Assembly: GCA_947625905.1 (NCBI GenBank) | Contig: CANQQJ010000010.1 | Coordinates: forward strand, 1-64,000 | Reading direction: 5' to 3' | Source: an uncultured Clostridia bacterium | GTDB taxonomy: Bacteria; Bacillota; Clostridia; Monoglobales; Monoglobaceae | Length of the DNA stretch: 64,000 nucleotides | Shown here: piece after piece, positions 1 to 18,210 of the stretch | How positions within the stretch are numbered: the first letter of the stretch is position 1 | How the letters are laid out: each line of letters opens with the position of its first letter | Position numbers and translations under genes: made by a program | The notes under the pieces: model-generated | The model's database searches: none | What the model was told of the DNA's origin: nothing | The model's input: the letters and a program-made list of their open reading frames with translations, nothing else

Positions 1-90
1 GCGCGCAACACCACCGGAGCCGAGCTCACTGTAGACGGCGGCAACATGATCCAGCTCTATCCGATAATCGACAATGATGATAGACAATAA
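1..90 (+). CDS. SDR-family oxidoreductase, C-terminal end only (partial)
   Basis: The window opens inside a reading frame that runs from base 1 to a TAA at 88-90. The last 29 residues include TGAELTVDGGNM, the typical C-terminal stretch of classical short-chain dehydrogenase/reductases, where this loop helps close the nucleotide and substrate site. The substrate cannot be judged because the Rossmann fold and the Tyr-x3-Lys active site lie outside the window. It precedes a secreted glycan-handling gene set by only 55 bases, so a sugar or sugar-acid oxidoreductase role is possible, but that is context-based inference. Confidence 0.7.
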   Translation, partial: ARNTTGAELTVDGGNMIQLYPIIDNDDRQ

Positions 91-110
91 AAATACATTA
101 CGAATATAAT
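81..110 (+). promoter_or_regulatory. possible sigma-A promoter for the surface-protein operon
   Basis: TAGACA at 81-86 and TATAAT at 105-110 are separated by 18 bp, about 35 bp before the start codon at 146. The -35 box overlaps the stop region of the SDR gene and is imperfect, so this is a reasonable but unproven promoter. Confidence 0.4.
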
Positions 111-145: not shown

Positions 146-2233
146 ATGAAATTATTTAAACGGCTTCATATGCGCGTTCAAAGCCTGATAACAGCGGCAA
201 TGATATGCTTTATGTTCGCCGCCGTAACGGTGCCCGCGGCCGCAGCCGAGCCGAACGACGAAAGCGATAAATGGGTAGAAATTTACTCTGAAAACTTTGA
301 TGATTGGAGCACCGAAGAAATATTCGCGGAAGAGGGCGGCCGTATGACTTTGCTTGGAGATAAGTCACTCGAGATCGGCAGTCCGACCGAAGGTTCCGAT
401 TCAAAGGCCATAAAATTTATTGGAAATGCGCCGAGCGCCGCTTCGGGCGGTATTCTCGATTTGGGTCAAGATTTAACGGCGGGCCGCAAATACAGATTCA
501 AGTTTTCGCTGTATTTAGACAACGTTACCGAAAATCCGGGAAGTATGCCTGTAATCGGATTGGAGGCTTCGGACCCTGAAGTGTCAAACTATGTTGCTTT
601 GGGATGTATCGTGAACGGAAACGTAAGACGTGCAAATATAGGCAATAACAGCGGGGTTCTCGGTAAAGCTGAAGCGGGCTCGTGGGTTGAATACGAAACG
701 GTCGTTGATATGGCAAAAAAAACGATCACATATAAAGTGACGCAGGGAGATAACACTATCGCAGACGGCAGCAAAGCTTATGCTTTGTCCGATCGCAGCG
801 TAACGTCCGCATGGACGGATGCGCTCAGCTTTTCCGGGATCTCGGTTAGGACAAAGAACGGTAAGGACGGCAATGGCGTTTCGGACAAGCCCTTTTACTT
901 TGATAACTTAGTGGTTGAGGAATACGCCGACGAAATCGAAATATTTAGCGATAATTTTGAAACAGACGGTAAGTATTACACAAATCCGCCCGCCGGTGTC
1001 ACAACATATGAACCGGCGCCCGTTGAAAGTTCGCATGGTAATTCCCTGGGATTGTCTTACAGCGGCTCGGGAGAATCAGCCCCTGCTGTTGCGCTTCCTT
1101 TGCCGAGCAATTGCAGCTATACCACAGGTAGATACAAAGTGACATTCTCGGTACTGCCAAACAATCAGCCGACGCTGGTATATGGCGGCAGCAGCGACGG
1201 TACATATTTTCTGTTGGGTTTCATCGCGTCGGACGGTTCGGTAAGACACGCGCCAATAGATAAGCCGGATAGCTATTTTACCCATGTTGATACAAATAAG
1301 TGGGTCGACTTTGAAACGATAGTCGACTTAGACAGCAAAACATTAAGCTACAGCGTAAGTCAGGACGGCAAAGAACTGGCCTTTCTGAGCGGTACGGAAA
1401 TAAAAAAAGGTGACGGAACTCCCATTGAAAACCCGATATTTGAGCGCTTTAGATTTGTGCTGAATACTACTCCCGAGCCGGGAAGCACGATATATTTGGA
1501 CGATTTGAAGGTCGAGACATACAATGATGCCGTTCCTAAACTGTCAAACGCGCGCGTTTCGATCTCGGACGCGTTGGGCACAACGGTCAAGGCCGAGGAG
1601 GGTTTGACCGTCAGTCCCGCGCTGACTAAAATCACTTTAAACTTCGGCTGTGAGATGGATGAGAGCACCTTGAGCAATATCACTGTGGTCGAGAACGGCT
1701 CAAGCGGCAATGCGGCTGCTTTTAGTGCTGAGCCTGCCGAAAACGGAGCTTACAAACTCATGTTTACGGAAGGATATTTAAAAGAAAACACAAACTACAC
1801 GATAACGGTGCCCGAATCGGTCAAGTCAGCAGACGGGAAAGCGGTAAATGAAGCGTATGTCCTGAACTTTGGTACTTCCGAAAGTTACGCCAAAATCACA
1901 AAGGCAACAAACGAAAGCGGCGAGAGCTTCAAAAAAGCCGACCTGAATGCAGGCGCGCAGCTGAACGTGAACATTGAGGCGGTGAACGCAACAGGAGCCG
2001 ACATGGGTCTTAAGGTAATCGCCGCGTACTATAAAGACGATGCGCTTGTAGCCGAGGATATAAACGACAAGCTGACATCCGCGGCGAATAACAGTGTGGT
2101 CAGGGGCGATTCGGGAACAGCGAACTTTATCGTGCCCGACGCCGCAGCGGACGCGGATAATGTGCGCGTTTATCTCTGGAATGATTTGGACGGAATGGAG
2201 CCCTACTGCACACCCTGGACGCCCGCTGAATAA
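146..2233 (+). CDS. secreted multi-module surface protein A (two sandwich-like modules, Ig-like domain)
   Basis: 695 residues. A signal peptide ends near residue 34 (hydrophobic core then AAAAE). Two related ~200-residue modules follow (about 45-262 and 265-465). Each has an ENF/DNF opening, a W-V-D/E-x-E-T-V/I-V-D-L/M core strand and a closing FYFDNLVVEEY-like or IYLDDLKVE-like strand; this looks like a beta-sandwich carbohydrate-binding or LamG/concanavalin-like fold, but I cannot assign a family. Residues about 470-585 resemble the bacterial Ig-like (SbsA/Big_5-type) domain, and about 590-690 form a small domain containing YLWNDLDGM. No catalytic domain and no SLH or sortase anchor is visible. 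Start chosen at 146 because AAGGAG lies 9 bases upstream. Its modules are closely related to those of the next two genes, so the three proteins probably act together at the cell surface, for example in glycan binding. Confidence 0.75.
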   Translation: MKLFKRLHMRVQSLITAAMICFMFAAVTVPAAAAEPNDESDKWVEIYSENFDDWSTEEIFAEEGGRMTLLGDKSLEIGSPTEGSDSKAIKFIGNAPSAASGGILDLGQDLTAGRKYRFKFSLYLDNVTENPGSMPVIGLEASDPEVSNYVALGCIVNGNVRRANIGNNSGVLGKAEAGSWVEYETVVDMAKKTITYKVTQGDNTIADGSKAYALSDRSVTSAWTDALSFSGISVRTKNGKDGNGVSDKPFYFDNLVVEEYADEIEIFSDNFETDGKYYTNPPAGVTTYEPAPVESSHGNSLGLSYSGSGESAPAVALPLPSNCSYTTGRYKVTFSVLPNNQPTLVYGGSSDGTYFLLGFIASDGSVRHAPIDKPDSYFTHVDTNKWVDFETIVDLDSKTLSYSVSQDGKELAFLSGTEIKKGDGTPIENPIFERFRFVLNTTPEPGSTIYLDDLKVETYNDAVPKLSNARVSISDALGTTVKAEEGLTVSPALTKITLNFGCEMDESTLSNITVVENGSSGNAAAFSAEPAENGAYKLMFTEGYLKENTNYTITVPESVKSADGKAVNEAYVLNFGTSESYAKITKATNESGESFKKADLNAGAQLNVNIEAVNATGADMGLKVIAAYYKDDALVAEDINDKLTSAANNSVVRGDSGTANFIVPDAAADADNVRVYLWNDLDGMEPYCTPWTPAE

Positions 2234-2286
2234 TTGCCGCATACGAATCGATTCGGACACGAAGTTGAAAGGAAGAGGTTTATAAT

Positions 2287-5200
2287 ATGACAAAAACAAA
2301 GAAAAATAATATTATAAAAAATATTATTATATTTACCGCAGCGGCGCTTCTGAGCGTCATATTATCGACCGCTGACTGCTGCTTTGCTGTCGAGAACGAA
2401 GGATTTTTCCGATATCTCAGCTTTGACGAGGACGATTTTTCGGAATGTTTTGACCAAAGCGGCTCGGCAGATCCAGCGAGGCTTTCCGATGCAATGAGGC
2501 GGCACGGTATTACGGATGTTACAAATGCCGCGTCGCTTGAAAGGCGGCTCGGCGACGAGGATACGCACGGCGCGTCTCTCAGGATAGGGCACACCGACAG
2601 CACCTACCGAGGCGTTGAGATAGATCTGGAAAAAGATCTCAAAGGCGGAACATACTCATTTGCGTTTTCGGTGATCCCCAACGGGAAACAGACATATATC
2701 GGCGCGGGTCCCGCCTCGTCCAAAGGCACGCCGAGCAACGGGATCATCCTTGCCGCTATCGATTCAGCCGGTCGGGTGTGCCACACAAAGCGCGGCGCCA
2801 AAGAAACGGAGATTTCAAATTATCGCATATGCGCGGTCAACCCCGATCAATGGGTCGACTTTGAAACGGTTGTGAATCTCGACAAAATGGAGATCTCATA
2901 CACGATCAAGCAGAACGGGAAAATCATCGTCGACAAGGCGTCATATCCTTTGACCGTATACGCGGACGGAACTACGCCGATATCGAGCGATTTCGGTATC
3001 GGCAAGGTCAATATAACCCAATACCATAACAGCGGTGAGGACTATATATACTTTGACGAGTTTATAGCGCGTGAGCTTGTATACGCTGCCGGCTTCGAAA
3101 ACGTGTCCACGGATAATATAGGCGCCTACGGAGTTGTTGACAACAGCACGCTTAAAAGCGCAAGGATCGCGGATTCCGACGCGGGTCACGGTAAATCTCT
3201 GCAAATGCGTGCGTCCGGCGGAAGCAATTACCGCGGCGCGGATATCAGCCTTCCCGGGAAATTTTCAAGCGGAAAGTACGTGTTTAACTTCTCCGTCCTG
3301 GCAAGCAAAAAGCCGATGTTTATCGGCGCGGGTACGGCCTCGGCGCCCGGGACCCCGGGAAACAGTGTTTTGCTTGGTTTTATCAATACAAGCGGTTTGG
3401 TGCTGCACACTGACCGAGGCAATACCGCTAACCGTGTATGTTCCATAACCCCTACGGAGTGGGTGGATTTTGAGACTGTTGTGGATCTTGACAACGGCAC
3501 TGTCAGCTACACTGTCAGGCAGAGCGGAAGGGTCATAGTATCTCAATTTACCGTGCCTATAACCTACGGCAACGGCGGAAGCATAGGCGGCAATTTTAAT
3601 ATAGAGCGTGTCACGGTGACGCAGTACACCACTGCCGACAGCGATGTCTACAGCTCATTTGATAATTTGATGATATCCGCGTATCAGCCGAGCCCTTCTT
3701 TGGAGGCGGCGAATGTGCGTTTTAACGATATGCTTGGCAACAGCCTCGCTCTGGCCGAATTTGCCGAGGATATTCAGAATTCGGAACCCGAACTTACGGT
3801 ATTTCCGGCGCTTAACAGTATCGCGCTGGATTTCGGCTGTCCCGTGACCGATGAGTCCGCGGAGGGAATACGGCTGCTTGACAGTAATATGCAGCGGGTG
3901 GAGCACACGGCCGCGGTTGAAGGGAACAAATGTGTATTGAGACCTTCGGCTCCGCTGACGCCCCAAAACAACTATTATATTCATGTTCCCGCGGGAATAA
4001 CTGCGCGTGACACGGGGCAAAAGCTGGGAAGCGAGTTTAATGCGGTTTTTGCCACGGACGAGATCGACGCGCTCGTGTCGCTCGACGGTGTAACATACGA
4101 AAACGGATCATTGATGGAAGGAGATTATCATGCCGCAGTCGGAGAAACGCTGTCGGCATATGTGACCGGAATAAATCCGAGCGATTCGAGCGAGACTATT
4201 GAGATGGATCTGATAGCGGCATGGTATAACGACGGCGTTTTGCTGGATATGGATACACAGCCTTTGGCCGTGCATCCCGGAGATATGCTGACAGAGCCGC
4301 ACAGGTTTGTCGTTCCGCAGTCGGCTGCCGAAGCGAATGCATTCTGCTGCTTCCTGTGGAATGATCTGAGCGGAATGGTGCCTTACGGCAGCGCCGTATC
4401 AATTCCCGAAAAATCAGTTGACGGATATGCAAAGGTTGAGACGGGGCGCAGCATAGGATTGACAAATACCTCGATTTATAACGACTCGAACATGAGGGTC
4501 GTATGCCGCGACGGCAAATACGGCAGAGTCACATCGCTGAACGACGGAAAGCTGTGTTATAACATAAATGTGGATGACGGCTTTATGTTTGACCTTCCGC
4601 CGAATACGCCGATCGAGGTAGAGGTTGAGTATTTTGACGAGGGAACAGGAAGCTTTGAACTGGATTATGATTCAAACGACCCGCAGATATACGGCGCTTT
4701 ATCGGCAGACCCAATGATATGGAAAGCCGCGCCGGTGATAACTCTGTCCGACACAAAAACATGGAAGACCCACACCTTCTATCTTGATGATATGAAACTG
4801 GGCAACCGCTGTGACGGAGGCACAGATCTGCGGCTCGGCGTGAGCGGACATATTTTAAGCAAAAACTCGCCCGAAGACGTGATATTCGGCTCGATCACTC
4901 TGCGCAGAGCCGATTACAAAAATCCGATAAAGACCGAGATCACCTCGCGGGAGCTTGGAAACATTTTCGGCATTGCCGACAAAATCGACTTGTCTCTGTC
5001 GGCAGAAAATATGCTTGACGAAGACGCGGTCATGTCATGGTCCTACAAGATTTATGATGAGGAAGATCAGCTTCTCGGCGAGATTGAAAAGAACGAAACG
5101 CGCTTCGGCGCAAAAGATAAAAAAGAGCTGCCTCTTGATATCGAGAATCCCGGAAAATACGGAATATATAAGATAGAACTGGAGTGCGAGACTTATATTG

Positions 5201-6516
5201 TCTCGCGACCCGAAAAGATATACAGCGAAACAATAACACGCGATTTTGCCGTGTCGATCATCCACGGCAAAGGCGATGGAAATCCCCGCTTCGGAGTGGT
5301 AACGTCGACTTATTACAATTACTGGGATACCACGGAAAACGCCGACGCGCTTATGCAAAAAGTCGGTGCGTCCGCTACCCGCTCACAGATAATTTGGCAG
5401 CGCATCGAGACATCTAAAGGAGTGCTTTCCGTTCCGGCCTTTGTGACCCAAAGGGCAATGCGGATGCATGATGATGAAATTGAATTTTTGCCCGTGTGCA
5501 CCATAGGCAACGGTGGAACGTCGTTTTATGCCGCCGGAAGCGCTGTCCCGACCTCTGATGAAGGGATCGCGGCTTTCGGAAAATATTGCGGCGAGCTTGC
5601 CAAGGGGTTAAAGAATTGCGGAGTCAAGTACTATGAGATTTGGAACGAGTACGATCTGCCCGCATTTAACCCGACGCGCGAATCACCGGAAATATATGTA
5701 AAACTGCTCAAAGCGGCGCGTGACGCCATCAAGGCTGTTGACAGCGAAGCGAAGATAATAGGCATGACGCCGTCCAACATAAAGAGAGGTCCGCTGACGT
5801 GGACCAAACAGGTCTTGGCGGCTGGAGCATATGACTATCTGGACATTGTAGGCCTGCACCCCTATGACACACACGAAAATTACTTTGATGATTCCGAGTT
5901 TATATACTATATGCAGCAGGTTATAAACGAATTAAAAAAATATGATAATGACGGAGAACTAAAGCCAATTTGGTTTACCGAGTTCGGCTTTTCAACAATG
6001 AGCGGCGGCTTCAGTCAATCCGATCAGGCCGATGCGCTGGTGCTGATGAACGCGATCACGCAGGGATACGGCTTTGCCGAAAAGGTTTTCCAATATGATC
6101 TGTACGACCGCTCTTACTTGGGAGAAAAGGAAAATAACTGGGGCTTGGTTTACGCGTGGAACGACAATATGGGAAACACGCCAAGAGGAGCAAAGCAGAG
6201 CTTTCTTGCCATGGCGGCTTACAACAGTTTTTGCGGCAGACACGCCGAATATAGAGACAAGATCGTTGACGGCGGCGCATATGCCTTCAGGTACTGCAAC
6301 GATAAGCTTGGCAAGGATGTGCTTTTGCTCGCCGCCGGAGCCGGCAGAACGGTGAAGGAAAAGCAGTTTAGTCTTGACTGCTCATCTGTTGATGTTTATG
6401 ACAGATACGGAAATTTAACCGACACGCTGACATCCGCAAACGGCGTGTACAGCTTCACGATAGATCAGGACCCGCTCTATGTTGTTGGAACCTTCGGTGA
6501 TTTCAAAGCCGAGTAA
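2287..6516 (+). CDS. large secreted clan GH-A glycoside hydrolase (GH39-like) with paired N-terminal modules
   Basis: 1409 residues. A signal peptide is cut near residue 35. Two copies of the module seen in the preceding protein lie at about 40-262 and 265-465 (each with WVDFETVV). An Ig-like domain (about 468-595) and a domain with FLWNDLSGM (about 600-705) follow, then a probable carbohydrate-binding beta-sandwich (about 710-875), another sandwich (about 878-995) and a C-terminal TIM-barrel-type glycosidase (about 998-1340). EIWNEYD puts the acid/base at Glu1121 and IWFTEFGFS puts the nucleophile at Glu1232, the usual spacing of clan GH-A retaining enzymes. The barrel most resembles GH39 or GH5-like enzymes; substrate is unknown. 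AGGAAGAGG precedes the ATG. Its stop overlaps an ATG of the next frame, but the next gene very likely starts 66 bases later. Confidence 0.8.
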   Translation: MTKTKKNNIIKNIIIFTAAALLSVILSTADCCFAVENEGFFRYLSFDEDDFSECFDQSGSADPARLSDAMRRHGITDVTNAASLERRLGDEDTHGASLRIGHTDSTYRGVEIDLEKDLKGGTYSFAFSVIPNGKQTYIGAGPASSKGTPSNGIILAAIDSAGRVCHTKRGAKETEISNYRICAVNPDQWVDFETVVNLDKMEISYTIKQNGKIIVDKASYPLTVYADGTTPISSDFGIGKVNITQYHNSGEDYIYFDEFIARELVYAAGFENVSTDNIGAYGVVDNSTLKSARIADSDAGHGKSLQMRASGGSNYRGADISLPGKFSSGKYVFNFSVLASKKPMFIGAGTASAPGTPGNSVLLGFINTSGLVLHTDRGNTANRVCSITPTEWVDFETVVDLDNGTVSYTVRQSGRVIVSQFTVPITYGNGGSIGGNFNIERVTVTQYTTADSDVYSSFDNLMISAYQPSPSLEAANVRFNDMLGNSLALAEFAEDIQNSEPELTVFPALNSIALDFGCPVTDESAEGIRLLDSNMQRVEHTAAVEGNKCVLRPSAPLTPQNNYYIHVPAGITARDTGQKLGSEFNAVFATDEIDALVSLDGVTYENGSLMEGDYHAAVGETLSAYVTGINPSDSSETIEMDLIAAWYNDGVLLDMDTQPLAVHPGDMLTEPHRFVVPQSAAEANAFCCFLWNDLSGMVPYGSAVSIPEKSVDGYAKVETGRSIGLTNTSIYNDSNMRVVCRDGKYGRVTSLNDGKLCYNINVDDGFMFDLPPNTPIEVEVEYFDEGTGSFELDYDSNDPQIYGALSADPMIWKAAPVITLSDTKTWKTHTFYLDDMKLGNRCDGGTDLRLGVSGHILSKNSPEDVIFGSITLRRADYKNPIKTEITSRELGNIFGIADKIDLSLSAENMLDEDAVMSWSYKIYDEEDQLLGEIEKNETRFGAKDKKELPLDIENPGKYGIYKIELECETYIVSRPEKIYSETITRDFAVSIIHGKGDGNPRFGVVTSTYYNYWDTTENADALMQKVGASATRSQIIWQRIETSKGVLSVPAFVTQRAMRMHDDEIEFLPVCTIGNGGTSFYAAGSAVPTSDEGIAAFGKYCGELAKGLKNCGVKYYEIWNEYDLPAFNPTRESPEIYVKLLKAARDAIKAVDSEAKIIGMTPSNIKRGPLTWTKQVLAAGAYDYLDIVGLHPYDTHENYFDDSEFIYYMQQVINELKKYDNDGELKPIWFTEFGFSTMSGGFSQSDQADALVLMNAITQGYGFAEKVFQYDLYDRSYLGEKENNWGLVYAWNDNMGNTPRGAKQSFLAMAAYNSFCGRHAEYRDKIVDGGAYAFRYCNDKLGKDVLLLAAGAGRTVKEKQFSLDCSSVDVYDRYGNLTDTLTSANGVYSFTIDQDPLYVVGTFGDFKAE

Positions 6517-6581
6517 TGATTAGGAAACAATATGATGTAATATACACACGGAAAAGCATAGAAAGACAGGAGGAAAAATCT

Positions 6582-9500
6582 ATGAGAATAAAAAAGCGTG
6601 CCCTTAGCCTGTTTCTGGCTGCTGCGCTTATTGGTACGGTGCTGCCCGCCGCGGCACCCGCCGCGGTCTTTGCGGCGGAGGATTGGTCGGCTATCTACAC
6701 CCAGGACTTTGAAAATTGTGATGGGGAAAACCTGTTGGGCGACGGTGGTCTTATGACGCCGACTCATACGGAAGATTCGGTCGAGTTTAAAATTGCCTCT
6801 CCGGACGGCGACGATACTTACCAAAATTCCTTGTCATGCGCTGCGAACGGCACAGACGGAGCCGGAGGCATTATTGCCCTGCCCGAAGGACAAAACATAA
6901 CGGACGGCAAGAAATACAGATTTAAATTTTCACTTTATCTGGTAAGCACCGATAATCCGGGCAGTATGCCTGTTATAGGTTTGGAATCCTCAAATACGGA
7001 GCTCGGTCAATACGCGGTTTTGGGATGTGTCGTAAACGGCGCGATAAGAAGCGCAAATATCGGCAACAGTGGCGGCAATTTGGGAAAGACGGTTAGTAAG
7101 GGTTCTTGGATAGATTTTGAAACCGTTGTTGATATGACAGGATCGAAAAAGACTGTTTCATATACCGTTAAACAAGACGGAGCGAACGTTTTGACTGATA
7201 TTGTGAAAGATTTAAAAAACAGAGATAATACAGACTTTACGGGAGAACTAAGTTTTTCCGGTATATCCGTAAGAGATAAAAATAAAGACGCTAAAGTGTT
7301 TTATTTTGATAACTTAGTGGTAGAAGAATACGTAGGAGATCCCGATGAGCCGACTCCGACACCGTCCGTGTCCACGCCGACTGCGCCTCCGCCGTCAAGT
7401 GACGCGCTGTTCTATGTGGATTTTGAGGGTGCTACAAGAGAAAGTCTTGTCAGCGGCTACGCATACGACGACGCTGGCCGCGGCGACGCGCTCTTTGCGG
7501 CGCGGGCGGCAGATGACCCGCACGGCGATTCGATGTTTTTTGCCAAGGGTGTGAACGGAGGTTCAGGCTATGCGTTTGCGTTTAATAATTCCTCGGCACC
7601 AAATACACCCGGAATAACACTCTCATCGGGAGTATATAAATTTTCATTTTCCATCTATCCCAATGGCGACACGCCGGTCGTTGCATTGGACGGAGGCTCT
7701 GCTCAAACCTATGTGCCGCTGGCCAGCGTAAGCGGAGGAATCGCGCGCCATGCGAGCATCACCGATACAACAAGTTCAACGGTGATCTGCTCCGGCCTGT
7801 CAAACAGCGAATGGGTGGACTTTGAAACAATAGTTGATCTGGACACATCAAGAGTCAGCTACCAAATTTCTCAGAACGGACAGTTTAAGGGAAGCAAGAC
7901 CGTTCCGCTTAGGGAGCATCTGGGCGGCGAATGGAGCGGCGCATATGCTTTTAAGAGAATAGCGATAAGAACGAGAAACGCTTCGCAAAACGGATTTTAC
8001 ATTGACGATATAAAGATGGAACGTTGGAGCGCAGCACCGTCGATCGGCACGGATTTTATTACTTTTACCGATGCGCTTGGAAATCAATTTAATCCCGCGT
8101 CCGATCATGAGGTTTCACCCGCCCTTGACAGCATCAAGCTTGACTTCGGATATGCTGTGAACGATGAAATATTAAATAATATTTCAATATCTCCCGAGGC
8201 TGATTTCAAGGTCTCCAAACAGGGAAGCGCCTGCGTCCTGACGTTTAATGAGTTTTTGGCCGGAGATACCGATTACAAGCTTACGATACCCGGATTAGAT
8301 AACGGTTCGGGCGGCAGTGTGTTTAACCTTAATTTTAAAACCGAAGCCGAAAAGACCTTGACCGAGCTTCGTGCTGTTAACAAAAACGGCGTGCAAGTCA
8401 ACGATATATCAGCGCTTCGGCCGGGTGACAAATTCACGGTTGAGTCATCTGTTGTCAATATGTCGGGCAGCGCGATGAACTTTACGGTTGTTGCCGCCTA
8501 CTATAACGGCGATCGGATGCTGGCCACGGATTATTATCCTTTGACGCTGGCGGACGGCGAATCTTTGCGCAGCACAGAGTTTACCGTGCCGAACGAGGCT
8601 GAGGGAATGACATCTATGCGGTGCTTCCTGTGGGATAAGATGGACAGTCTGATTGCGTATTGCGGATATCTTGACATAGACGACGTTAAAGAAAATGAGG
8701 CGGCGCAGGCGGCTGATATTCCCTATACGCTGGATTATGACAGAACAGATTCTAAGCTTTCTGTGGAAGGCGTTAAGACAGACACCGGCTATGTTGTATT
8801 GCAGATACTCAAAGAAGGAAAAACTTTTGAAACAGTTCCGCAAAAGGATGATATAATGTATCACAATCAATGTGTGACCGCGGAAGGGGCATACAGCTTT
8901 GATGTTGAATTTGCGGACAGCGATGAGGGAGTACATCAAGCCGTGTTGGCTGCAAGCGGCGGAAGCCCGGAACGCGAGTATATGACTCTTACGCTGGTGA
9001 CGCCGGAACATTTCGCGCAGCTGTACAGCGACATAAACACAGCGGCTGCAGCTGGCGACGCCGATGCGTTCGCTAAGATCATAAACGAAAACAGAGCGGC
9101 AATAGGCTTTGAATTCGGCCTTACGGACGGAAAAGTGCTGTCTGCCGAGTTGACGGATTATATGAATTATGTCAAGGCTCATCCCTTGGACGTGAATTTA
9201 GAGGACGATAACAACAGGATATTCAAAACATATATGACAGCTTACGCTCTGAACAACGGAGGTATTGCAAATATCAACGAATATGCGGATCAGCTTTATT
9301 TCACGGATCAAAATGTCCTTCCGATGTATAACGAGCTTGCGGTCAGCGACACGATTCAAAAATACTTCAGCAAACGGCTGTCAGACGGCCATGTGGTCGG
9401 ATTGGACGGATTTGAAACGGCATTCGAGCAGGCCCTTGTGTTTACAACCATACGCTACGGCGACGGTTACGGTGATGTTAAAAAAGTGTTGACTGATTAC

Positions 9501-10319
9501 GGAGATACTCTCGGTATTACGGGAACCGCGCCAAATACCGTATACAGCAGCCTTTTGGGAAAAGACTTTACCGGCGCAGAAGCGCTCCATTCCGAGTATA
9601 ATTCACTGCTCGGCAGCGGTAATAAGCCGAGCAATAGCAGCGGAGGCGGCTTCAGCGGCGGAGGCGGCGGGAGCTTCAGCAGTGTCGGAAGTACAGTCGG
9701 GTACGGAAATACGGGCATAGACGGATATGTTGCTGAAACTTTGCCGAACGAGAACAAGCCGCAGCAGCTGACGGTTGGCTTCAATGATATTGAAGGCGTT
9801 GATTGGGCAGCAGAGGCTATACTGGCTCTTGCGGACCTTGGGATTATAAACGGTACAGGCGACGGATTGTTCGAGCCGGATAACTCGGTTACCCGTGAGG
9901 AATTTACAAAGATCCTGGTATCCGCTATGGGCTTGGCGGGTTCATCTTACGCCGACAACGTCTTTACGGATGTTCCCGATGATTCATGGTATTGCAGTTT
10001 CGTGAATATAGCGCGGGAAAACGGAATCGTCCAAGGCGTCGGAAACGGTGAATTCGGCGCGGGACAAACCATTACCCGCGAGGATATGGCAACAATGCTC
10101 TACAACGCTCTGAACCTCAGAGGTGTGGAAATGTCCGCTTCGGTGCCGACATTTAATGACACTGCGGAAATTTCCGATTATGCAAAGCCGGCAGTAGCCG
10201 CCCTTTATGAACTGGGTGCCGTAAACGGCGTTACCGAAACCGAGTTCAGCCCGAAGGAAACAGCCACCCGCGCGCAGGCGGCAAAAGTCGTATATGGCGT
10301 GTTGGATCATCTTCAGTAA
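6582..10319 (+). CDS. S-layer-anchored multi-module surface protein C (three C-terminal SLH repeats)
   Basis: 1245 residues from the ATG at 6582, which has AGGAGG 8 bases upstream; the open frame reaches back to 6516 but that start lacks a ribosome site and would bury the signal peptide. Signal peptide to about residue 31 (VFAAED). Module 1 (about 35-245) is very close to module 1 of protein A, followed by a Pro/Thr linker (about 250-268), module 2 (about 270-480), an Ig-like domain (about 490-585), the FLWDKMDS domain (about 590-690), a mostly helical part (about 700-1000) and a Gly/Ser linker (about 1013-1037). The last 180 residues are three SLH repeats (for example DLGIINGTGDGLFEPDNSVT and ENGIVQGVGNGEFGAGQTIT), which bind pyruvylated secondary wall polymer. 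It is the only member of the three-protein set with a wall anchor, so it may be the base of a surface assembly. No catalytic domain recognised. Confidence 0.85.
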   Translation: MRIKKRALSLFLAAALIGTVLPAAAPAAVFAAEDWSAIYTQDFENCDGENLLGDGGLMTPTHTEDSVEFKIASPDGDDTYQNSLSCAANGTDGAGGIIALPEGQNITDGKKYRFKFSLYLVSTDNPGSMPVIGLESSNTELGQYAVLGCVVNGAIRSANIGNSGGNLGKTVSKGSWIDFETVVDMTGSKKTVSYTVKQDGANVLTDIVKDLKNRDNTDFTGELSFSGISVRDKNKDAKVFYFDNLVVEEYVGDPDEPTPTPSVSTPTAPPPSSDALFYVDFEGATRESLVSGYAYDDAGRGDALFAARAADDPHGDSMFFAKGVNGGSGYAFAFNNSSAPNTPGITLSSGVYKFSFSIYPNGDTPVVALDGGSAQTYVPLASVSGGIARHASITDTTSSTVICSGLSNSEWVDFETIVDLDTSRVSYQISQNGQFKGSKTVPLREHLGGEWSGAYAFKRIAIRTRNASQNGFYIDDIKMERWSAAPSIGTDFITFTDALGNQFNPASDHEVSPALDSIKLDFGYAVNDEILNNISISPEADFKVSKQGSACVLTFNEFLAGDTDYKLTIPGLDNGSGGSVFNLNFKTEAEKTLTELRAVNKNGVQVNDISALRPGDKFTVESSVVNMSGSAMNFTVVAAYYNGDRMLATDYYPLTLADGESLRSTEFTVPNEAEGMTSMRCFLWDKMDSLIAYCGYLDIDDVKENEAAQAADIPYTLDYDRTDSKLSVEGVKTDTGYVVLQILKEGKTFETVPQKDDIMYHNQCVTAEGAYSFDVEFADSDEGVHQAVLAASGGSPEREYMTLTLVTPEHFAQLYSDINTAAAAGDADAFAKIINENRAAIGFEFGLTDGKVLSAELTDYMNYVKAHPLDVNLEDDNNRIFKTYMTAYALNNGGIANINEYADQLYFTDQNVLPMYNELAVSDTIQKYFSKRLSDGHVVGLDGFETAFEQALVFTTIRYGDGYGDVKKVLTDYGDTLGITGTAPNTVYSSLLGKDFTGAEALHSEYNSLLGSGNKPSNSSGGGFSGGGGGSFSSVGSTVGYGNTGIDGYVAETLPNENKPQQLTVGFNDIEGVDWAAEAILALADLGIINGTGDGLFEPDNSVTREEFTKILVSAMGLAGSSYADNVFTDVPDDSWYCSFVNIARENGIVQGVGNGEFGAGQTITREDMATMLYNALNLRGVEMSASVPTFNDTAEISDYAKPAVAALYELGAVNGVTETEFSPKETATRAQAAKVVYGVLDHLQ

Positions 10320-10336: not shown

Positions 10337-12940
10337 ATGTTCAAAAAATTTAGAATGGCACTTAGTTTGCTTTTGGTCTTTGTTATGTGCGCCGGGCTTA
10401 TGCCGATACAGTCCGCTTTTGCCGAAGATGAAGCAGCAGCCGCAGCAAGCGAGGCCGAGCTTCGCGCTATGGAGGTACTTCGTCTGCTTAACATTGTTCC
10501 CGATGATTATTACGACTACAATGTAAGTCTGGATGTGGGCGTGACGCGAGCGGATTTTGCCTCCGCAGCGGCTAAGCTGATAAACATGGGCAATGAGAAT
10601 AACGGCGCGGTATACTATTATGACGTTCCCGTAAGCCATTGGGCCCATGACGCTATCAGCACGCTTACGGATATGGGTGTGTTAAACGGGCAGGAGGACA
10701 ATCTGTTCAGGCCGGACACGTTGATAGAAAAGAACGAAGCATATAAAATGCTGATCACAATACTGGGATATCATGAAATGGCCGAATACAGCGGAGGCTA
10801 TCCCATCGGTTATCTTGATATTGCGAGAAAACTCAAGCTTACACAGGGCGTATCGGACAGCACTGTAGTGACTCGCGGTGATATGTTCATGCTTTTATAC
10901 AACGCTTTGACCGCGGAGATGTCCGAGGCTGTTCTCTACAGCGGCAATCAAAAAACATATCGCACATCGGAGGACAGGACGCTGCTGTCCGTTTATTGGG
11001 ATATTTACAAAGACAGAGGAATTGTCAACGGCTTAAACTGTGTGACTCTTGACGGCGGTGTTTTGAAGCCCGGAGAGGTCAAGATCGATGATAATGTTTA
11101 TGCAAGCGACGTTTCAATGACGGAATTTCTTGGCCACGAGGTTGAGTTTTTCTATCAGCAAAGCGGCACTAACACTAAAAAGCTCATGTGGGCTTCGGAC
11201 ACGTCGCGAAACCTTGTGCTTGATATTAATGTCAACTATGACGCATCCTTTGACAGAACATCCTACGCCCTGTCATATTACGCCGATGGCGGCAGCAAGC
11301 AGCGGACCGTAACATTAAACCGAGGCATCACCGTCGTATATAACGGCGCTGTGGCCTCAACGGATATATCCGAAATATTCAGCCTGCCCAAATATACGGC
11401 TCAGCTTATCTCGATCGGCGGATCGTATAAAACGGCTATCGTATGGGCGTATGATAATCTTGTGATCGACAGTATTGACAGCACTTCCAAAACCGTTTAT
11501 GATAAAAATGAATCCACTCGCAAGATGTCATTGGACGAAAACAATTATGAGTATATGGCTTTGTATATGAGCGGCGGGAATCAGGTTTCCTTCAACAGCC
11601 TGCAGCCCGGATATGTGCTCAGCAGCTATTTGTCACAAGACGGAAAATATTTAACGGTTCGTGTAACCTCTGAGAAAATAAGCGGCATTGTTGATTCGAT
11701 AATTGATGATGATAACGGCTATTTCTTGATCGTAAACGCGGTATCATACTTTATGCCTAAAAATGTGTATGAAAATCCGAAGGCAGGCGACAGCGTAACG
11801 TTGTACCTGGACACCGCGGGCGATGTCGCCGCCTATGAGCGGGAGTCGGGTAACGCATCTTATGCGCCGGCTTTCCTGACCAAGGGCGTAATTATTCGAA
11901 CTCTGTTTGACAGAGGCCTTCAGTTTAATGTGCTCAAGAGCGACGGTACTGTCGGCGTTATGAGAGCGGCTGACAAGCTTACCGTTGACGGTGTAAGCTA
12001 CAGCGGCAGCAAGACAGCGGACGCCTACAGCGTGTTTCTCAGCGACGGACAGTTTCAGCCTCAGCTCGTTATGCTCAAAACCAATGCGAACGGAGAGATC
12101 ATAATGATCGATACCGTAAAGTTAGGCGAAGGAGAGGATTTGAACAACACTCTGTCGGTCAGCGTGCCCTTCCAGGAAAACGCCCGCTATAAGAGCAACG
12201 GTGCTTTGGGAATGAAGTCGGTTCTTGATAATAACACGATCATATTTATGGTGCCGTCCCGGGAACAGATTGCCGATGCCAACGACACATCGTTTTATGT
12301 CGTTAACAGGAGCACGCTTACAAATAACGATCTTGTCAATGTGGAAACCTATAAGATAACCGACCGAATCGGATACGAACAATTCGCGGTGATGTGGGGT
12401 TATGAGATGGGATATACCTCAGCGCTGCCGGTACTGGTTCGGGCGATCACGACGGTTTTGGATGAAAATAATTGCCCGATTCACGCTCTTGACGGCTATC
12501 AGGGAGCTAACGAGGTTTCTATTCCCGCAAGTTCCGAAGTGTCATTTGACGGTATTGAACCCGGAATGGTGGTTCGTGCAAATGTGAATCCGAATACCTC
12601 TTTGCTTGAGGGATATGAGATCTTGTTTGACTACAAAAATATGGAGGCTTATCCGCCTTTGGCGAATGCTGACGCCCCATACCGAACCGCAGGCGGCTAT
12701 GTGAACGATTTGGTCGACACGGTTATACGCATTGGCTACACCGATCCCGCGGTCGTGGATCAGGTTATGTATACTGCAAATATACCTGTGCTCGTTTACG
12801 ACACCGCCGCGAAAAGCAATAATATAACAGTTAGCTCCATTAATGAGACCCGGACTTACCGAAACGCGGGAAGCGATTGTTCAAAGGTACTTATGGCGAG
12901 CCGCAACGGCACACCGGTACTGTATATACTTTACAATTAA
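10337..12940 (+). CDS. secreted protein with N-terminal SLH repeats and a large uncharacterised region
   Basis: 867 residues from the ATG at 10337, which has GGAGG 7 bases upstream (an ATG at 10322 lies before that site). Signal peptide to about residue 30 (SAFAED). Residues about 40-200 hold two to three SLH-type repeats (DVPVSHWAHDAISTLTDMG, then NGQEDNLFRPDTLIEKNEAY; a third is diverged). The remaining ~650 residues are rich in beta strands with Val/Tyr/Asp/Ser and recurrent short motifs such as SYLSQDGKYLTVRV; no known enzyme motif is visible. SLH at the N-terminus with a long C-terminal region is typical of S-layer or S-layer-associated proteins. It follows the SLH-anchored protein with 17 bases between and precedes the sugar importer, so it is likely part of the same operon. 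Confidence 0.7.
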   Translation: MFKKFRMALSLLLVFVMCAGLMPIQSAFAEDEAAAAASEAELRAMEVLRLLNIVPDDYYDYNVSLDVGVTRADFASAAAKLINMGNENNGAVYYYDVPVSHWAHDAISTLTDMGVLNGQEDNLFRPDTLIEKNEAYKMLITILGYHEMAEYSGGYPIGYLDIARKLKLTQGVSDSTVVTRGDMFMLLYNALTAEMSEAVLYSGNQKTYRTSEDRTLLSVYWDIYKDRGIVNGLNCVTLDGGVLKPGEVKIDDNVYASDVSMTEFLGHEVEFFYQQSGTNTKKLMWASDTSRNLVLDINVNYDASFDRTSYALSYYADGGSKQRTVTLNRGITVVYNGAVASTDISEIFSLPKYTAQLISIGGSYKTAIVWAYDNLVIDSIDSTSKTVYDKNESTRKMSLDENNYEYMALYMSGGNQVSFNSLQPGYVLSSYLSQDGKYLTVRVTSEKISGIVDSIIDDDNGYFLIVNAVSYFMPKNVYENPKAGDSVTLYLDTAGDVAAYERESGNASYAPAFLTKGVIIRTLFDRGLQFNVLKSDGTVGVMRAADKLTVDGVSYSGSKTADAYSVFLSDGQFQPQLVMLKTNANGEIIMIDTVKLGEGEDLNNTLSVSVPFQENARYKSNGALGMKSVLDNNTIIFMVPSREQIADANDTSFYVVNRSTLTNNDLVNVETYKITDRIGYEQFAVMWGYEMGYTSALPVLVRAITTVLDENNCPIHALDGYQGANEVSIPASSEVSFDGIEPGMVVRANVNPNTSLLEGYEILFDYKNMEAYPPLANADAPYRTAGGYVNDLVDTVIRIGYTDPAVVDQVMYTANIPVLVYDTAAKSNNITVSSINETRTYRNAGSDCSKVLMASRNGTPVLYILYN

Positions 12941-13003
12941 AAAACATATGGAAGATAGGCTTCCTTAAAACCTAAATACAACTAAATCAGGAGTATGAAG
13001 AAA

Positions 13004-14413
13004 ATGAAAAAAACAGGATTTATGATGAAAATTGTGGCGATCGCCGCGGCTGCGGCAATCATGATCGGCATGCTGTCCGGCTGCGGTTCATCGGGCAAAA
13101 ACAACGGCAGAAATTCAGACGGTAAAATTGTTGTAGAGGTCGGAAACTGGCCGCATGAGACAGACGAGGCTACCTTAAATTTGTGGACCCAATATGAGCA
13201 GGACTTTGAGAGCGCTCATCCCGATATTGATATAGTGCCAAACACATATGTCTACGACGTGAAAACCTTTGCGACCAAGTCGGCTGCGGGACAGCTGCCC
13301 GACATCTATCGCGTACCATTCAGCGAGGCGCAGTCGATAATAAGAAGAGGCTGCGCGGCTGACATCACAGACAAAATGAAAGAAGCGGGACTGCTGGACT
13401 CCTTAAATAAGGATTTGATCGACATGACATCCGACGAAAACGGAAGGATCTACTCGCTGCCGCAGACCGCTTACGCACAAGGTGTTATGATCAACAAGGA
13501 CCTGTTCAAGCAAGCGGGGCTTGTTAACGATGACGGCACCGTCAAGGTTCCTAAAACCTTTGAGGAGCTGGCTGAATATGCGGCTCAGATCAAAGAAAAG
13601 ACAGGTGTCGCAGGTTTTGCAATGCCGACTACCAATAATGTTGGCGGCTGGATCTTGCTAAATGTGGCGTGGAACTATGGTGTGGAATTTGAAAAAATGA
13701 ATGATGACGGCAAATGGACAGCTACATTCGACACGCCCGAATTCCATGACACATTGCAGTGGCTTTATGACTTGCGCTGGAACAAGGGTGCGCTGGCCGA
13801 TAACACGGTTATAGACGGCTCCGCGTATACCGAGACCTTCGGCACCGGTCAAGCGGCTATGATACTGCGCGCTACCACCGACTGCAACACAATGGTTACA
13901 AGATACGGAATGAACAAAGACGTAATAGCTATGGGCGAAATGCCCGAAGGCCCGAAAGCGCACTATTCTCAGCTCGGCGGACAATTATATGCCCTTAAAT
14001 CAACTCTGACAGATGAGCAGATTGACGCGGCCTTTGAGTGGCTGAAGTTTATGAACGTGACGCCCGAACTTGATGAGCAAAAGGAAACCGAGCTGCGCAA
14101 GCTGGACTTTGACCAGGGCAGAATAGTATGGCCCTATGATCTGTTCAGCATATGGGATGATGATGCGCGCACCGAGAACGTCAAGAAGGTAAGAGAGCCT
14201 TTTGTGAACATAGATATGAAGGATTATCAGAATTACGCGGACGCGGAGGGTATCACGCTGCGCGCCGAACCGGAAGTATGCGCGCAAGAGTTATACAGCG
14301 TGCTTGACGGCGTCATCCAGGAAGTTCTTACCAACAAGGATGTTGATATTCCTGCGATCAGCAAAAAAGCTCAAGATGATTTCCAGGTAAATCATTTGGA
14401 CAAGATGGATTGA
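13004..14413 (+). CDS. sugar ABC transporter, substrate-binding lipoprotein
   Basis: 469 residues from the ATG at 13004; an in-frame ATG at 12995 sits right against the AGGAG at 12989-12993, so the later one is preferred. Type II signal peptide with lipobox LSGC, lipidated Cys27, followed by a Gly/Ser/Asn linker. The rest has the extracellular solute-binding family 1 pattern (VEVGNWP, IYRVPF, IYSLPQTAYAQGVMINKDLF, then a C-terminal hinge region), the class that binds oligosaccharides for CUT1 importers. Two permease genes follow directly. No ATPase gene is present, as is usual when a shared MsmK/MsmX-type ATPase serves several importers. The cargo is presumably the oligosaccharide released by the neighbouring surface glycosidase. 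Confidence 0.9.
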   Translation: MKKTGFMMKIVAIAAAAAIMIGMLSGCGSSGKNNGRNSDGKIVVEVGNWPHETDEATLNLWTQYEQDFESAHPDIDIVPNTYVYDVKTFATKSAAGQLPDIYRVPFSEAQSIIRRGCAADITDKMKEAGLLDSLNKDLIDMTSDENGRIYSLPQTAYAQGVMINKDLFKQAGLVNDDGTVKVPKTFEELAEYAAQIKEKTGVAGFAMPTTNNVGGWILLNVAWNYGVEFEKMNDDGKWTATFDTPEFHDTLQWLYDLRWNKGALADNTVIDGSAYTETFGTGQAAMILRATTDCNTMVTRYGMNKDVIAMGEMPEGPKAHYSQLGGQLYALKSTLTDEQIDAAFEWLKFMNVTPELDEQKETELRKLDFDQGRIVWPYDLFSIWDDDARTENVKKVREPFVNIDMKDYQNYADAEGITLRAEPEVCAQELYSVLDGVIQEVLTNKDVDIPAISKKAQDDFQVNHLDKMD

Positions 14414-14458: not shown

Positions 14459-15373
14459 ATGAAGACAATAAGGTTAAAGTCCGGCGGAGGAAGAAGACGT
14501 ATATCCGGTCTGATCAAGCGCAACATTTCCGGATGGATGTTAATTTTGCCGTCCATGCTCCTGTTCGTGCTTATTGTATGGCGCCCGATCTGTATTGCGT
14601 TCTACTATGCGTTTTTCCGTATGCAGGGAATGCAGGCGGTACGATTTGTCGGTTTACAGAACTTTAAGGATGTGTTGACCGACACCGCGTTTTTGCAAAC
14701 GCTGGGAAATACCGTCAAATATGTGTTATGGTCCTTGTTGATCGGCCTGCCGCTGCCGTTTTTGGCTGCTGTTATGATCAACGAGATGATACATTTTAAA
14801 GGTTACTTTAAATTTACTATGTACCTGCCGGTGATCGTACCGACGGTTGCTACCTGTCTTATCTGGAAAATGCTGTATATGGACGGACAGGGCGGATTGC
14901 TGAACGCGATATTATACTTTTTCGACGTCGGGCCGTATACATGGCTGAGTAACAAGAACCTGACCATACCTTTGATAATTGTATCTATGACATGGCAGGG
15001 CTTTGGAACTAATATGCTTCTGTATTTGGCGGCGCTTCAGAGCACAGATCAGAGCCTCTATGAGGCATCCAGAATTGACGGCGCGGGCTTTTGGCAGCGT
15101 TTTTGGCATATACTGCTGCCCCATATGAGGGGGATCATTCTGCTGCTGGCGATCAGGCAGGTCATCGGTGTGTTCCAGGTAACGGAGCAGCCCCTTGTAA
15201 TGACCGGAGGCGGTCCTAACGGCGCGTCTATGTCGCTTGGTCTGACCAACTACTTTTACGCGTTCCAGTACGGGCAATTTGATAAGTCCATGGCGCTTGG
15301 CGTCATATCATTTTTGTTCCTGCTTATTTTGACGTTTGTGTATTTCAGGCTGGACAGGAAATTTAATGAATAG
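14459..15373 (+). CDS. sugar ABC transporter permease (MalF/UgpA type)
   Basis: 304 residues with six predicted membrane spans; AAAGGAG is 5 bases before the ATG. The family BPD_transp_1 coupling loop is seen as YEASRIDGAGFWQRFWHILLP (EAA motif, about residues 200-220), which docks onto the ATPase. The N-terminal cytoplasmic stretch is basic (RLKSGGGRRR). It lies 45 bases after the binding protein and 14 bases before the second permease, so the three are co-transcribed and form one CUT1 importer in the cytoplasmic membrane. Confidence 0.92.
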   Translation: MKTIRLKSGGGRRRISGLIKRNISGWMLILPSMLLFVLIVWRPICIAFYYAFFRMQGMQAVRFVGLQNFKDVLTDTAFLQTLGNTVKYVLWSLLIGLPLPFLAAVMINEMIHFKGYFKFTMYLPVIVPTVATCLIWKMLYMDGQGGLLNAILYFFDVGPYTWLSNKNLTIPLIIVSMTWQGFGTNMLLYLAALQSTDQSLYEASRIDGAGFWQRFWHILLPHMRGIILLLAIRQVIGVFQVTEQPLVMTGGGPNGASMSLGLTNYFYAFQYGQFDKSMALGVISFLFLLILTFVYFRLDRKFNE

Positions 15374-15387
15374 GGAGGAACAGTGAA

Positions 15388-16287
15388 ATGAAAAAGGCTT
15401 ATGCTAAGACAAACGGACTGCTGAACGGCATTGAGCTGCAGTCCGCAAAATACAGAGTGATATACGGCGTTATGATGGCATTGCTGATCTTATTGAGTTT
15501 GGCGTGCTTAATACCGATACTTTGGGTGTTCCTCTCGGGTTTCAAGACCCCCGCTGAAATGAACAGTATTCCACCGACACTGCTCCCGTCAGAATACAGC
15601 TTTGAAAAGGTTCGGGAGATCTGGAACAAAATCAATTTTTTCAAGTATTTCAAAAACACAATGCTTGAAATTATCGGCGCGCTGATTTTTGATATCGTCC
15701 TGAACGGTTTTGCCGGATATGTACTGTCAAGACTGCGGCCGCTCGGTTCGGCGCTTTTGGAAACTCTGGTATTCGGAACAATGCTGCTCCCGTCCGTAAG
15801 CATGGTGCCGCTGTATATGACATTTGTTGATATGCCGATCGTTCATGCCAACCTCACCGGATCTTTCTTGCCTTTGTGGCTGCAGGCCGGATGCAATGCG
15901 TTCAACATCATGCTTTTCCGAAATTTCTTTAACGGAATACCGATGGATTACCTTGAAGCGGCGCGAATTGACGGATGCAGCAGTATAGGGATCTTTGTGA
16001 AGATCATTCTGCCGCTGTCAAAGCCTATTTTGGTGGTAGAAACTATTTTCTGCGTGATCAATTCGTGGAAAAACTTTATGTGGCCGTATCTGATCCTAGG
16101 GTCCACGGGCAAAGAGACAATTTCTATTTTGCTATACACGATCTCATCGGGAACCAGCGGTATGAACCTTACAGTGCCCGAGACCATGCTTGTCACTATG
16201 CTGTCGATTATACCGCCGGGAATATTTTACGCTGTCTTCTCAAAGCAGATCATGGGCGGCATAAATATGAGCGGAATAAAAGGCTGA
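15388..16287 (+). CDS. sugar ABC transporter permease (MalG/UgpE type)
   Basis: 299 residues, six predicted membrane spans. The EAA loop reads YLEAARIDGCSSIGIFVKIILP (about residues 188-209), and the C-terminus ends with KQIMGGINMSGIKG, the common tail of MalG-like subunits. GGGAGG lies 9 bases upstream of the ATG and overlaps the region just after the stop of the first permease. It pairs with the preceding permease to form the translocation channel. Confidence 0.92.
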   Translation: MKKAYAKTNGLLNGIELQSAKYRVIYGVMMALLILLSLACLIPILWVFLSGFKTPAEMNSIPPTLLPSEYSFEKVREIWNKINFFKYFKNTMLEIIGALIFDIVLNGFAGYVLSRLRPLGSALLETLVFGTMLLPSVSMVPLYMTFVDMPIVHANLTGSFLPLWLQAGCNAFNIMLFRNFFNGIPMDYLEAARIDGCSSIGIFVKIILPLSKPILVVETIFCVINSWKNFMWPYLILGSTGKETISILLYTISSGTSGMNLTVPETMLVTMLSIIPPGIFYAVFSKQIMGGINMSGIKG

Positions 16288-16330
16288 TCAAATTTGAACA
16301 AATTATTTAAAACGAAAGGATATGATGATT

Positions 16331-17216: not shown

Positions 17217-17247
17217 TTTTGAGCGGGCTATGTAAGCCCGCTCAAAA
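17217..17247 (+). terminator. rho-independent terminator after the GH16 gene
   Basis: Perfect 13-bp inverted repeat (TTTTGAGCGGGCT and its complement) with a 5-base loop, followed by an AT-rich stretch. It closes the surface-glycan operon before the proB promoter. Confidence 0.85.
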
Positions 17248-18122: not shown

Positions 18123-18210
18123 AAAACGGGAACTTTTTTTGAATTTCATCGTCTAACATAATATACGGATTACAGGCGGTGATTATATGAAAACTAAAGG
18201 TTCCCGTTTT
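18123..18210 (+). repeat. inverted repeat bracketing the start of the GH26-like gene
   Basis: AAAACGGGAAC at 18123-18133 is exactly complementary to GTTCCCGTTTT at 18200-18210, with 66 bases between that contain the ribosome site and start codon. The right arm is inside the coding region. It could fold as a long-range hairpin in the mRNA or act as a DNA operator; chance cannot be excluded. Confidence 0.4.

Follow-up and report, generated by a model that had tools for sequence, protein, structure and literature searches.

The window analyzed here, a stretch of 64,000 nucleotides from an uncultured bacterium of the class Clostridia, opens with a single co-directional run of genes separated by short gaps and followed by a hairpin (Table 1). 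The run encodes three proteins, A, B, and C, a fourth, D, an ABC sugar transporter, and a GH16 glycoside hydrolase. Judged from strand, gaps, and hairpin, it appears operon-like and is predicted to be co-transcribed; the hairpin may mark its end, in a scan that returned 18 terminator-like hairpins against 18.3 expected. The promoter-like site before A counts for little by itself because 39 such sites were found in 18.5 kb, with 24.3 expected. The reading frame of C opens at 6516, and its likely true start, at 6582, lies behind an AGGAGG. Gene D, directly 3' of C, encodes the second SLH protein of the locus, with a signal peptide, an N-terminal SLH region, and a D-core of about 660 aa for which this D has no Pfam match. 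The GH16 is 80% identical to the one that follows D in a paralogous cluster (L054). A secreted glycoside hydrolase, an SLH anchor, and an ABC sugar transporter adjoin here, the composition of a Gram-positive SLH-based glycan-utilization operon. The original prediction concerned A, B, and C; gene D, the transporter with the GH16, and the wider spread of the modules in this genome, described below, lie beyond it. The NCBIfam scan covered A to D and the neighboring genes.

Table 1. Features of the locus, with positions in the window
Feature	Position	Strand	Description
Promoter-like site TAGACA-18-TATAAT before A	81..110	+	consensus scan, 11/12 positions
Protein A	146..2233	+	695 aa; signal peptide, two lectin-like modules, Big_5, C-terminal LW; no SLH
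A module 1	269..931	+	module alignment
A module 2	932..1534	+	residues 263-463; AlphaFold2 model, concanavalin-like jelly roll
A Big_5 and LW	1532..2230	+	LW match 1868-2221, ending 3 residues before the stop
Protein B	2287..6516	+	1409 aa; signal peptide, two modules, Big_5, LW, then clan GH-A-type glycosidase (predicted)
B module 1	2416..3075	+	module alignment
B module 2	3076..3696	+	module alignment
B Big_5 and LW	3697..4401	+	LW internal, enzyme part after it
B GH-A core	5533..6141	+	residues 1083-1285; WNE 1119-1121, TEFG 1231-1234
Protein C	6582..10319	+	signal peptide, two modules, Big_5-like, LW, ANC, Gly-rich linker, three SLH
C module 1	6678..7337	+	module alignment
C module 2	7404..8039	+	module alignment
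C Big_5-like and LW	8040..8672	+	ANC directly after
ANC domain of C	8706..9665	+	profile A4; stand-alone gene with SLH in L051, L052, L055
Three SLH of C	9780..10283	+	PF00395; 9780-9905, 9963-10091, 10149-10283
Protein D	10337..12940	+	ORF opens 10322, 872 aa; likely start 10337
ABC solute-binding protein (sugar)	12995..14413	+	SBP_bac_1, 82 bits
ABC permease	14459..15373	+	BPD_transp_1
ABC permease	15388..16287	+	BPD_transp_1
GH16 glycoside hydrolase	16322..17161	+	PF00722, 55.9 bits; no signal peptide visible
13-pair hairpin, gap between GH16 and proB (17334)	17217..17247	.	scan; terminator-like on minus strand only

The architecture of A, B, and C proved to be as originally described from the letters of the sequence: two modules of about 200 residues in each, with the core W-V/I-D/E-F/Y-E-T occurring twice per protein, then an Ig-like domain, then a domain with the motif LW[ND], found once in each protein and here denoted LW, with a clan GH-A glycosidase added in B, three SLH repeats in C, and neither SLH nor glycosidase in A. 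Homology among the six modules exceeds chance in all 15 pairs (BLASTP), with E-values ranging from 3e-56 (A1/C1, 48% identity) to about 3e-6 (B1/C1). The Ig-like domain is a Big_5 that exceeds the Pfam cut-off in A (33.2 bits) and B (23.8 bits, the cut-off being 23.6); the copy in C, absent from the Pfam list at E<=1, aligns with the other two. The AlphaFold2 model of the second module of A adopts the concanavalin or legume-lectin jelly-roll fold, and the modeled module is 11 and 16% identical to the concanavalin-like domains of the sialidase BT_1020 (5mqr) and of galactocerebrosidase (5nxb), respectively. It belongs to no named Pfam CBM or lectin family; the module profile matched no PDB sequence at E up to 10. 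None of the six modules attains a Pfam cut-off. The best Pfam match among them was to CBM_4_9, in a single member (E 0.0017), and the whole proteins scored 14.8 (A) and 18.0 bits (C) against this family, below the cut-off of 25.9. As for B, its GH-A domain reaches 21.6 bits against the Glyco_hydro_cc cut-off of 21, and WNE and TEFG are presumably its catalytic motifs, with the acid/base and nucleophile glutamates; B is thus a predicted clan GH-A-type glycosidase, assigned to clan level.

What is conserved in relatives is not the trio. The original prediction had A, B, and C kept together, and this we reject, because the close form of the module, represented by profile A1, matches (E<=0.001) in 3 of the 51 genomes of the order, with 26 matches in the genome of origin, two in G031, and one in G037. 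This form is nearly private to its own genome, where six of the 26 matches are the modules of A, B, and C. The conserved core is instead a pair: D and, immediately before it, an ANC-SLH anchor, which here makes up the C-terminal half of C. This pair is found again throughout the class, also in other genera and families, and the module/Big_5/LW proteins around it are variable. The locus is one representative of a gene set that recurs in Clostridia. Among the first 58 ANC matches listed in the GTDB family, set against 59 listed D matches, 48 had a D match just downstream, in two of these cases across a gap of more than 2 kb; of the ten others, seven had no listed D on the contig and three had D far away. 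At the class level, adjacency was found in 20 of 35 cases, and the misses say little because scoring took in no more than about three D candidates per genome. In the family, ANC is present in 16 of the 38 genomes (E<=0.001) and D-family matches in all 38 (profile A3, SLH region included). The compared loci were picked through LW, ANC, or D matches, one contig (L057, found again as L071 in G078 by identical length and sequence match) being counted once, and the co-occurrence counts are confounded by ancestry. ANC has no Pfam family in C, and against the PDB it gave weak, unrelated-looking matches only; D matched PDB entries through SLH only. Pfam searches with LW, ANC, the D-core, and the module returned scattered weak matches in single members.

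The LW domain is mostly the C-terminal domain of secreted proteins without SLH. Among the 57 copies in the genome of origin, 46 extend to no more than 30 residues from the stop, and no listed SLH match lies in the ORF of any of these 46; the other 11, the copy in B among them, are internal. In a separate analysis of LW position, 12 of 47 tail matches were left out for not reaching the LW end of the profile. SLH in the same protein was found for none of the 46 terminal copies versus five of the 11 internal ones (Fisher p 1e-4), and terminal LW and SLH were combined in none of 190 ORFs. C-type proteins carry LW fused to ANC, and such fusions are recurrent. LW occurs in 36 of the 38 family genomes (E<=0.01) versus the 16 with ANC, and strict co-occurrence of the two was therefore rejected; indeed, genomes of the same genus that lack ANC have many LW copies, and of the 108 genomes with LW in the class, 57 lack ANC and 19 lack the D-core. 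Because LW genomes without ANC exist, any partner of LW must be more general: the D-core, another wall protein, or the wall itself. An ANC match lies within 15 kb of LW in 16 of the best 30 LW matches (on contigs outside the profile set), which no more than hints at a subclass of ANC-linked copies. The LW model is of middling quality (pLDDT 70, pTM 0.55) and indicates an Ig-like fold only; fold comparison singled out no one family, conservation is very low (mean column identity 27%), searches against the PDB gave weak, unrelated-looking matches only, and no WxL family was found among 22 LW members (Pfam, E<=0.1). A joint structural alignment of LW and ANC was set aside, a relative's ANC having been aligned onto LW.

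On balance, though with only a slight leaning, we read the locus as a surface glycan-capture and degradation operon in which the members without SLH dock through LW onto an SLH-bound base. At the cell wall, polysaccharides are probably captured and cleaved by the secreted enzymes and lectin-shaped proteins, which are possibly held at the conserved wall-bound pair by a small end-domain without a Pfam name. Capture and display are well supported: the glycan-capture function that had originally been proposed is supported by the lectin fold, the glycosidases, the sugar transporter, and the wall anchor in C, and what falls away is the trio as its unit. In this scheme, the SLH repeats of C and D would fasten these two proteins to the wall, the lectin-like modules that occur in pairs in A, B, and C would bind one polysaccharide, B would cut it, the transporter would import the pieces, and the GH16 may process them inside, while A, B, and other members without SLH would be retained non-covalently at the surface by contact of LW with the ANC/D base. 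This predicted docking is the least certain step. If A and B attach through C, a contact through LW is likelier than one between modules, because most of its secreted carriers without SLH end in LW and because the C-type proteins have it joined to ANC. Against docking, the LW of B is internal, and LW is not tied to ANC.

A lesser but serious possibility is that LW is a capping Ig-like domain without any docking function, so that A and B either leave the cell as freely secreted proteins or cling through their lectin modules to glycans of the wall or the substrate, the architecture resulting from duplication and domain shuffling. The Ig-like fold is common in secreted proteins, 57 class genomes have LW without ANC, 11 of the 57 copies in this genome are internal, and shuffling appears active because A is 52% identical to a protein of another locus (L050) over 603 aa, whereas the modules of B are only 27-33% identical to those of A. 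A mere spacer, however, should not be C-terminal in 46 of 57 copies and shun SLH proteins when terminal, nor does this explanation sit well with the recurrence of LW-ANC fusions. It is unlikely, in our estimate, that LW binds the wall polymer directly, as SLH and WxL domains do, and so serves as an anchor in its own right, not as an adaptor to ANC/D. The mutual avoidance of terminal LW and SLH and the presence of LW in genomes without ANC would agree with such a role, but in C-type proteins LW is internal and a second anchor would be redundant because SLH already anchors them, and a mean column identity of 27% is a weak basis for the recognition of one polymer. Equally improbable is a mainly structural role of D and its partners in the S-layer, with nutrient capture incidental, a reading favored by the D-family matches in every family genome and by a D-like gene that adjoins another SLH gene in matching surroundings in two loci (L084 and L085), but opposed by the sugar transporter and GH16 directly after D, by the glycosidase and lectin-fold proteins before it, and by the many divergent copies per genome, which suit a specialized rather than a bulk S-layer use.

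Cellulosomes are built on SLH-anchored scaffoldins through cohesin-dockerin contacts and include carbohydrate-binding modules. The locus resembles them in combining a small domain on secreted enzymes, putative carbohydrate-binding modules, and SLH-bearing wall anchors, with three SLH in C and SLH in D, but the candidate docking domain is C-terminal and Ig-like and the anchor is the ANC/D pair. The original separation of this locus from cellulosomes and SusCD systems holds, in that no cohesin, dockerin, SusC, or SusD family was found in A to D (Pfam, E<=1), SLH wall proteins being present instead; nor were WxL, DUF916, or DUF3324 at the same threshold. As far as the available portions of the sources describe them, the Csc (CscA-D) or WxL-WxLIP clusters of lactobacilli, enterococci, and listeriae, which in a 2006 abstract are absent from clostridia, encode secreted surface proteins proposed to form carbohydrate-acquisition complexes, the large WxL proteins carrying a C-terminal WxL domain for which a WxLIP partner with Ig-like domains is the proposed binder (PMC1534035, PMC10599100). 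The likeness lies in operon-type clusters of secreted surface proteins with a proposed role in carbohydrate acquisition; the difference lies in the base, which here consists of two SLH proteins. The best reading is that the locus works like the Csc/WxL clusters or cellulosomes and is a member of neither.

Two Paenibacillus systems offer further parallels, within what the accessible parts of the reports state. S1 of P. curdlanolyticus B-6, likened to D by description only, is of similar length (863 versus 872 aa), with N-terminal SLH and no known homology in the rest of the chain; in its native form it assembles with Xyn11A, reportedly in need of glycosylation, and binds wall fragments and insoluble polysaccharide, but an ANC-like partner is not described in that portion of the text (PMC6823336). 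Paenibacillus sp. JDR-2, with 77 SLH genes, has SLH-anchored multimodular glycoside hydrolases with binding modules beside ABC sugar transporter gene sets, as here, but with anchor, binding module, and enzyme on one chain rather than spread across A, B, C, and D (PMC4765114). The open-access literature yielded nothing on Monoglobus with SLH or S-layer homology, and titles and abstract openings on SLH with surface, scaffold, C-terminal-domain, or uncultured topics do not describe this gene set.

Beyond this locus, it is conceivable, although rather doubtful, that LW represents a C-terminal docking domain, undescribed and class-wide, that, in many Clostridia, holds dozens of secreted glycan-active proteins non-covalently on SLH-bound receptors of the ANC/D-core type, with its own receptor pair for each cluster and separate from both cohesin-dockerin and WxL. 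Genomes of this kind encode large secreted proteins without a visible anchor by the dozen, in this case 46 ORFs with terminal LW and no listed SLH match. If the docking reading is true, their retention at the surface would be explained by a widespread, SLH-excluding C-terminal domain together with a conserved base of two SLH proteins, and four families without a Pfam name, namely, the module, LW, ANC, and the D-core, would gain a testable role. ANC followed by D may then serve as a marker for glycan-utilization operons in uncultured Clostridia.

Proteins A, B and C, each carrying two lectin-like modules, a Big_5 domain and a domain with an LW[ND] motif (LW), are encoded consecutively with D on the plus strand of contig C10, whose first 64 kb form the window, in a draft genome of 2.96 Mb; all four proteins are secreted. 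The trio of the original prediction is present as described but belongs to a larger set: D, an 872-aa protein with an N-terminal SLH region, directly follows C. Downstream of D lie the genes for an ABC sugar transporter (solute-binding protein and two permeases) and then a GH16 enzyme without a visible signal peptide. Because the genes from A to GH16 share one strand and are separated by short gaps, their layout suggests a single putative operon.

Coordinates of features in the window and in comparison loci
Location	Feature	Remark
Window 1-90	Contig end within the 3' end of a gene	Product terminus LTVDGGNMIQLYPIIDNDDRQ; presumably resembles short-chain dehydrogenase by its motif
Window 17217-17247	Hairpin, 13 pairs	Between GH16 and proB
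Window 18187-20052	621-aa secreted-looking protein past proB, outside the putative operon	Big_7 domain; middle part resembles a glycosidase core, judged by eye
L050:3-7457 (G000:C5)	1314-aa protein, truncated by contig end	Modules joined to one SLH repeat
L084:8981-13953	Pair of D-like and SLH proteins	
L085:6886-11862	Pair of D-like and SLH proteins	
G035:C7:25095-27737	D homologue	One in-frame TGA
G036:C3:28353-30995	D homologue	One in-frame TGA

The modules are not confined to A-C: a profile search yields 26 matches in this genome, with six loci (L050-L055) besides the window. Four of these (L051, L052, L054 and L055) each encode a D homologue and an anchor protein consisting of ANC, a domain without a Pfam name, a Gly-rich linker and SLH repeats. 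The anchor is a gene of its own (~560 aa) in L051, L052 and L055 and is fused C-terminally to module-module-Big_5-LW in L054 and in C. L054 comes close to a complete paralogue of the window set: it has genes of the A-like, C-like, GH and D kinds, and its GH16 matches that of the window at 80% identity. In the L050 protein, the A-like modules match A at 52% identity and a further module matches B1 at 59%; the protein's neighbour is a GH39-like/CBM9 protein 56% identical to the enzyme half of B; the parts are those of the window set, but SLH anchoring is direct. The surface is SLH-rich, with at least 150 SLH matches in the genome (150 of 231 candidates scored).

The conserved core of these gene sets is the ANC-SLH protein together with D. 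The former is encoded directly upstream of D in 7/7 loci, namely, six from other genera picked by D matches (L061, L062, L064-L067) and the added L057, and at least 48 of the 58 listed ANC matches in the family (43.7 bits or more) have a same-strand D match downstream, mostly 620-700 bp from the ANC end, a distance that the SLH part would roughly fill. At class level, all six further loci, each the best ANC locus of its genome (families f15, f16, f22 and f32), have the D N-terminus after ANC; L071 (f34), on the same contig as L057 (G078), was counted once, which takes away one locus of many and leaves the likelihoods given below unchanged. The C-type fusion (module, LW, ANC, SLH) recurs in L072 and L074. 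Among 391 class genomes, ANC is present in 51 and the D-core, the ~660-aa remainder of D, in 101. A D-like protein (949-968 aa) stands back to back with an SLH protein of 614-620 aa in two members of the genus that share the gene surroundings (L084, L085); a core wall protein may be the ancestor of D. D homologues in two genomes each have one in-frame TGA (table).

The previously noted C/Y-x-F/Y-L-W-N/D motif indeed marks a domain, of ~115 residues, for which structure prediction gives seven strands in an Ig-like fold. In the cluster loci, 35 of 47 tail-profile matches reach LW, and in 27 of these no more than 25 residues separate LW from the C-terminus. Eight copies are internal: five belong to ANC-SLH fusions (C, L054, L065, L072, L074), one is joined to an enzyme (B) and two to other sequence (L063, L065_12893). 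Genome-wide, 46 of 57 copies lie within 30 residues of the stop, and a listed SLH match occurs in the same ORF for 0/46 terminal versus 5/11 internal copies (Fisher p 1e-4). An apparent exception at C13:18144 was rejected, the SLH ORF ending at 13548 and the LW ORF running from 13224 in a different frame. The 190 ORFs of the fetched loci include 39 with terminal LW, 37 of them beginning with what a crude hydropathy rule takes for a signal peptide, and 45 with SLH, none having both. Such terminal placement and SLH exclusion is what a sorting or docking domain would be expected to show, and the LW-ANC fusions make ANC/D the candidate partners. LW is found, however, in 108 of the 391 class genomes; ANC is missing from 57 of these and D-core from 19, and in six genomes of the genus that have no ANC match, LW is again terminal in 11/12 LW ORFs. 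Any docking partner would have to be broader than ANC.

Csc/WxL clusters are described as operons whose surface proteins are proposed to assemble into complexes for acquiring carbohydrates (PMC1534035, PMC10599100). The window set would be analogous as an operon-type set of surface proteins for carbohydrate acquisition; the Pfam scan of A-D found no WxL, DUF916 or DUF3324. S1 of Paenibacillus curdlanolyticus is described as an 863-aa protein with N-terminal SLH and no other homology, which in native form binds a xylanase (PMC6823336). Compared by description only, D appears strikingly parallel to S1. What the set shares with the cellulosome is SLH anchoring and a small domain that recurs, although neither cohesin nor dockerin was found in A-D by the Pfam scan, in agreement with the initial reading.

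SLH trimers bind secondary wall polymer, and GH-A enzymes work through two glutamates; both glutamate motifs are found in B. Architecture, fold, neighbourhood, recurrence, fusions and terminal position are established here. We infer a scenario in which C and D would be fixed at the surface via SLH, A and B retained via LW, polysaccharide held by the lectin-like modules and cleaved by B, and the products taken up by the ABC transporter. LW docking is a tentative, somewhat doubtful step, and capture, display and docking combined are only slightly favored, whereas capture and display of polysaccharide at the surface of this bacterium is very probable.
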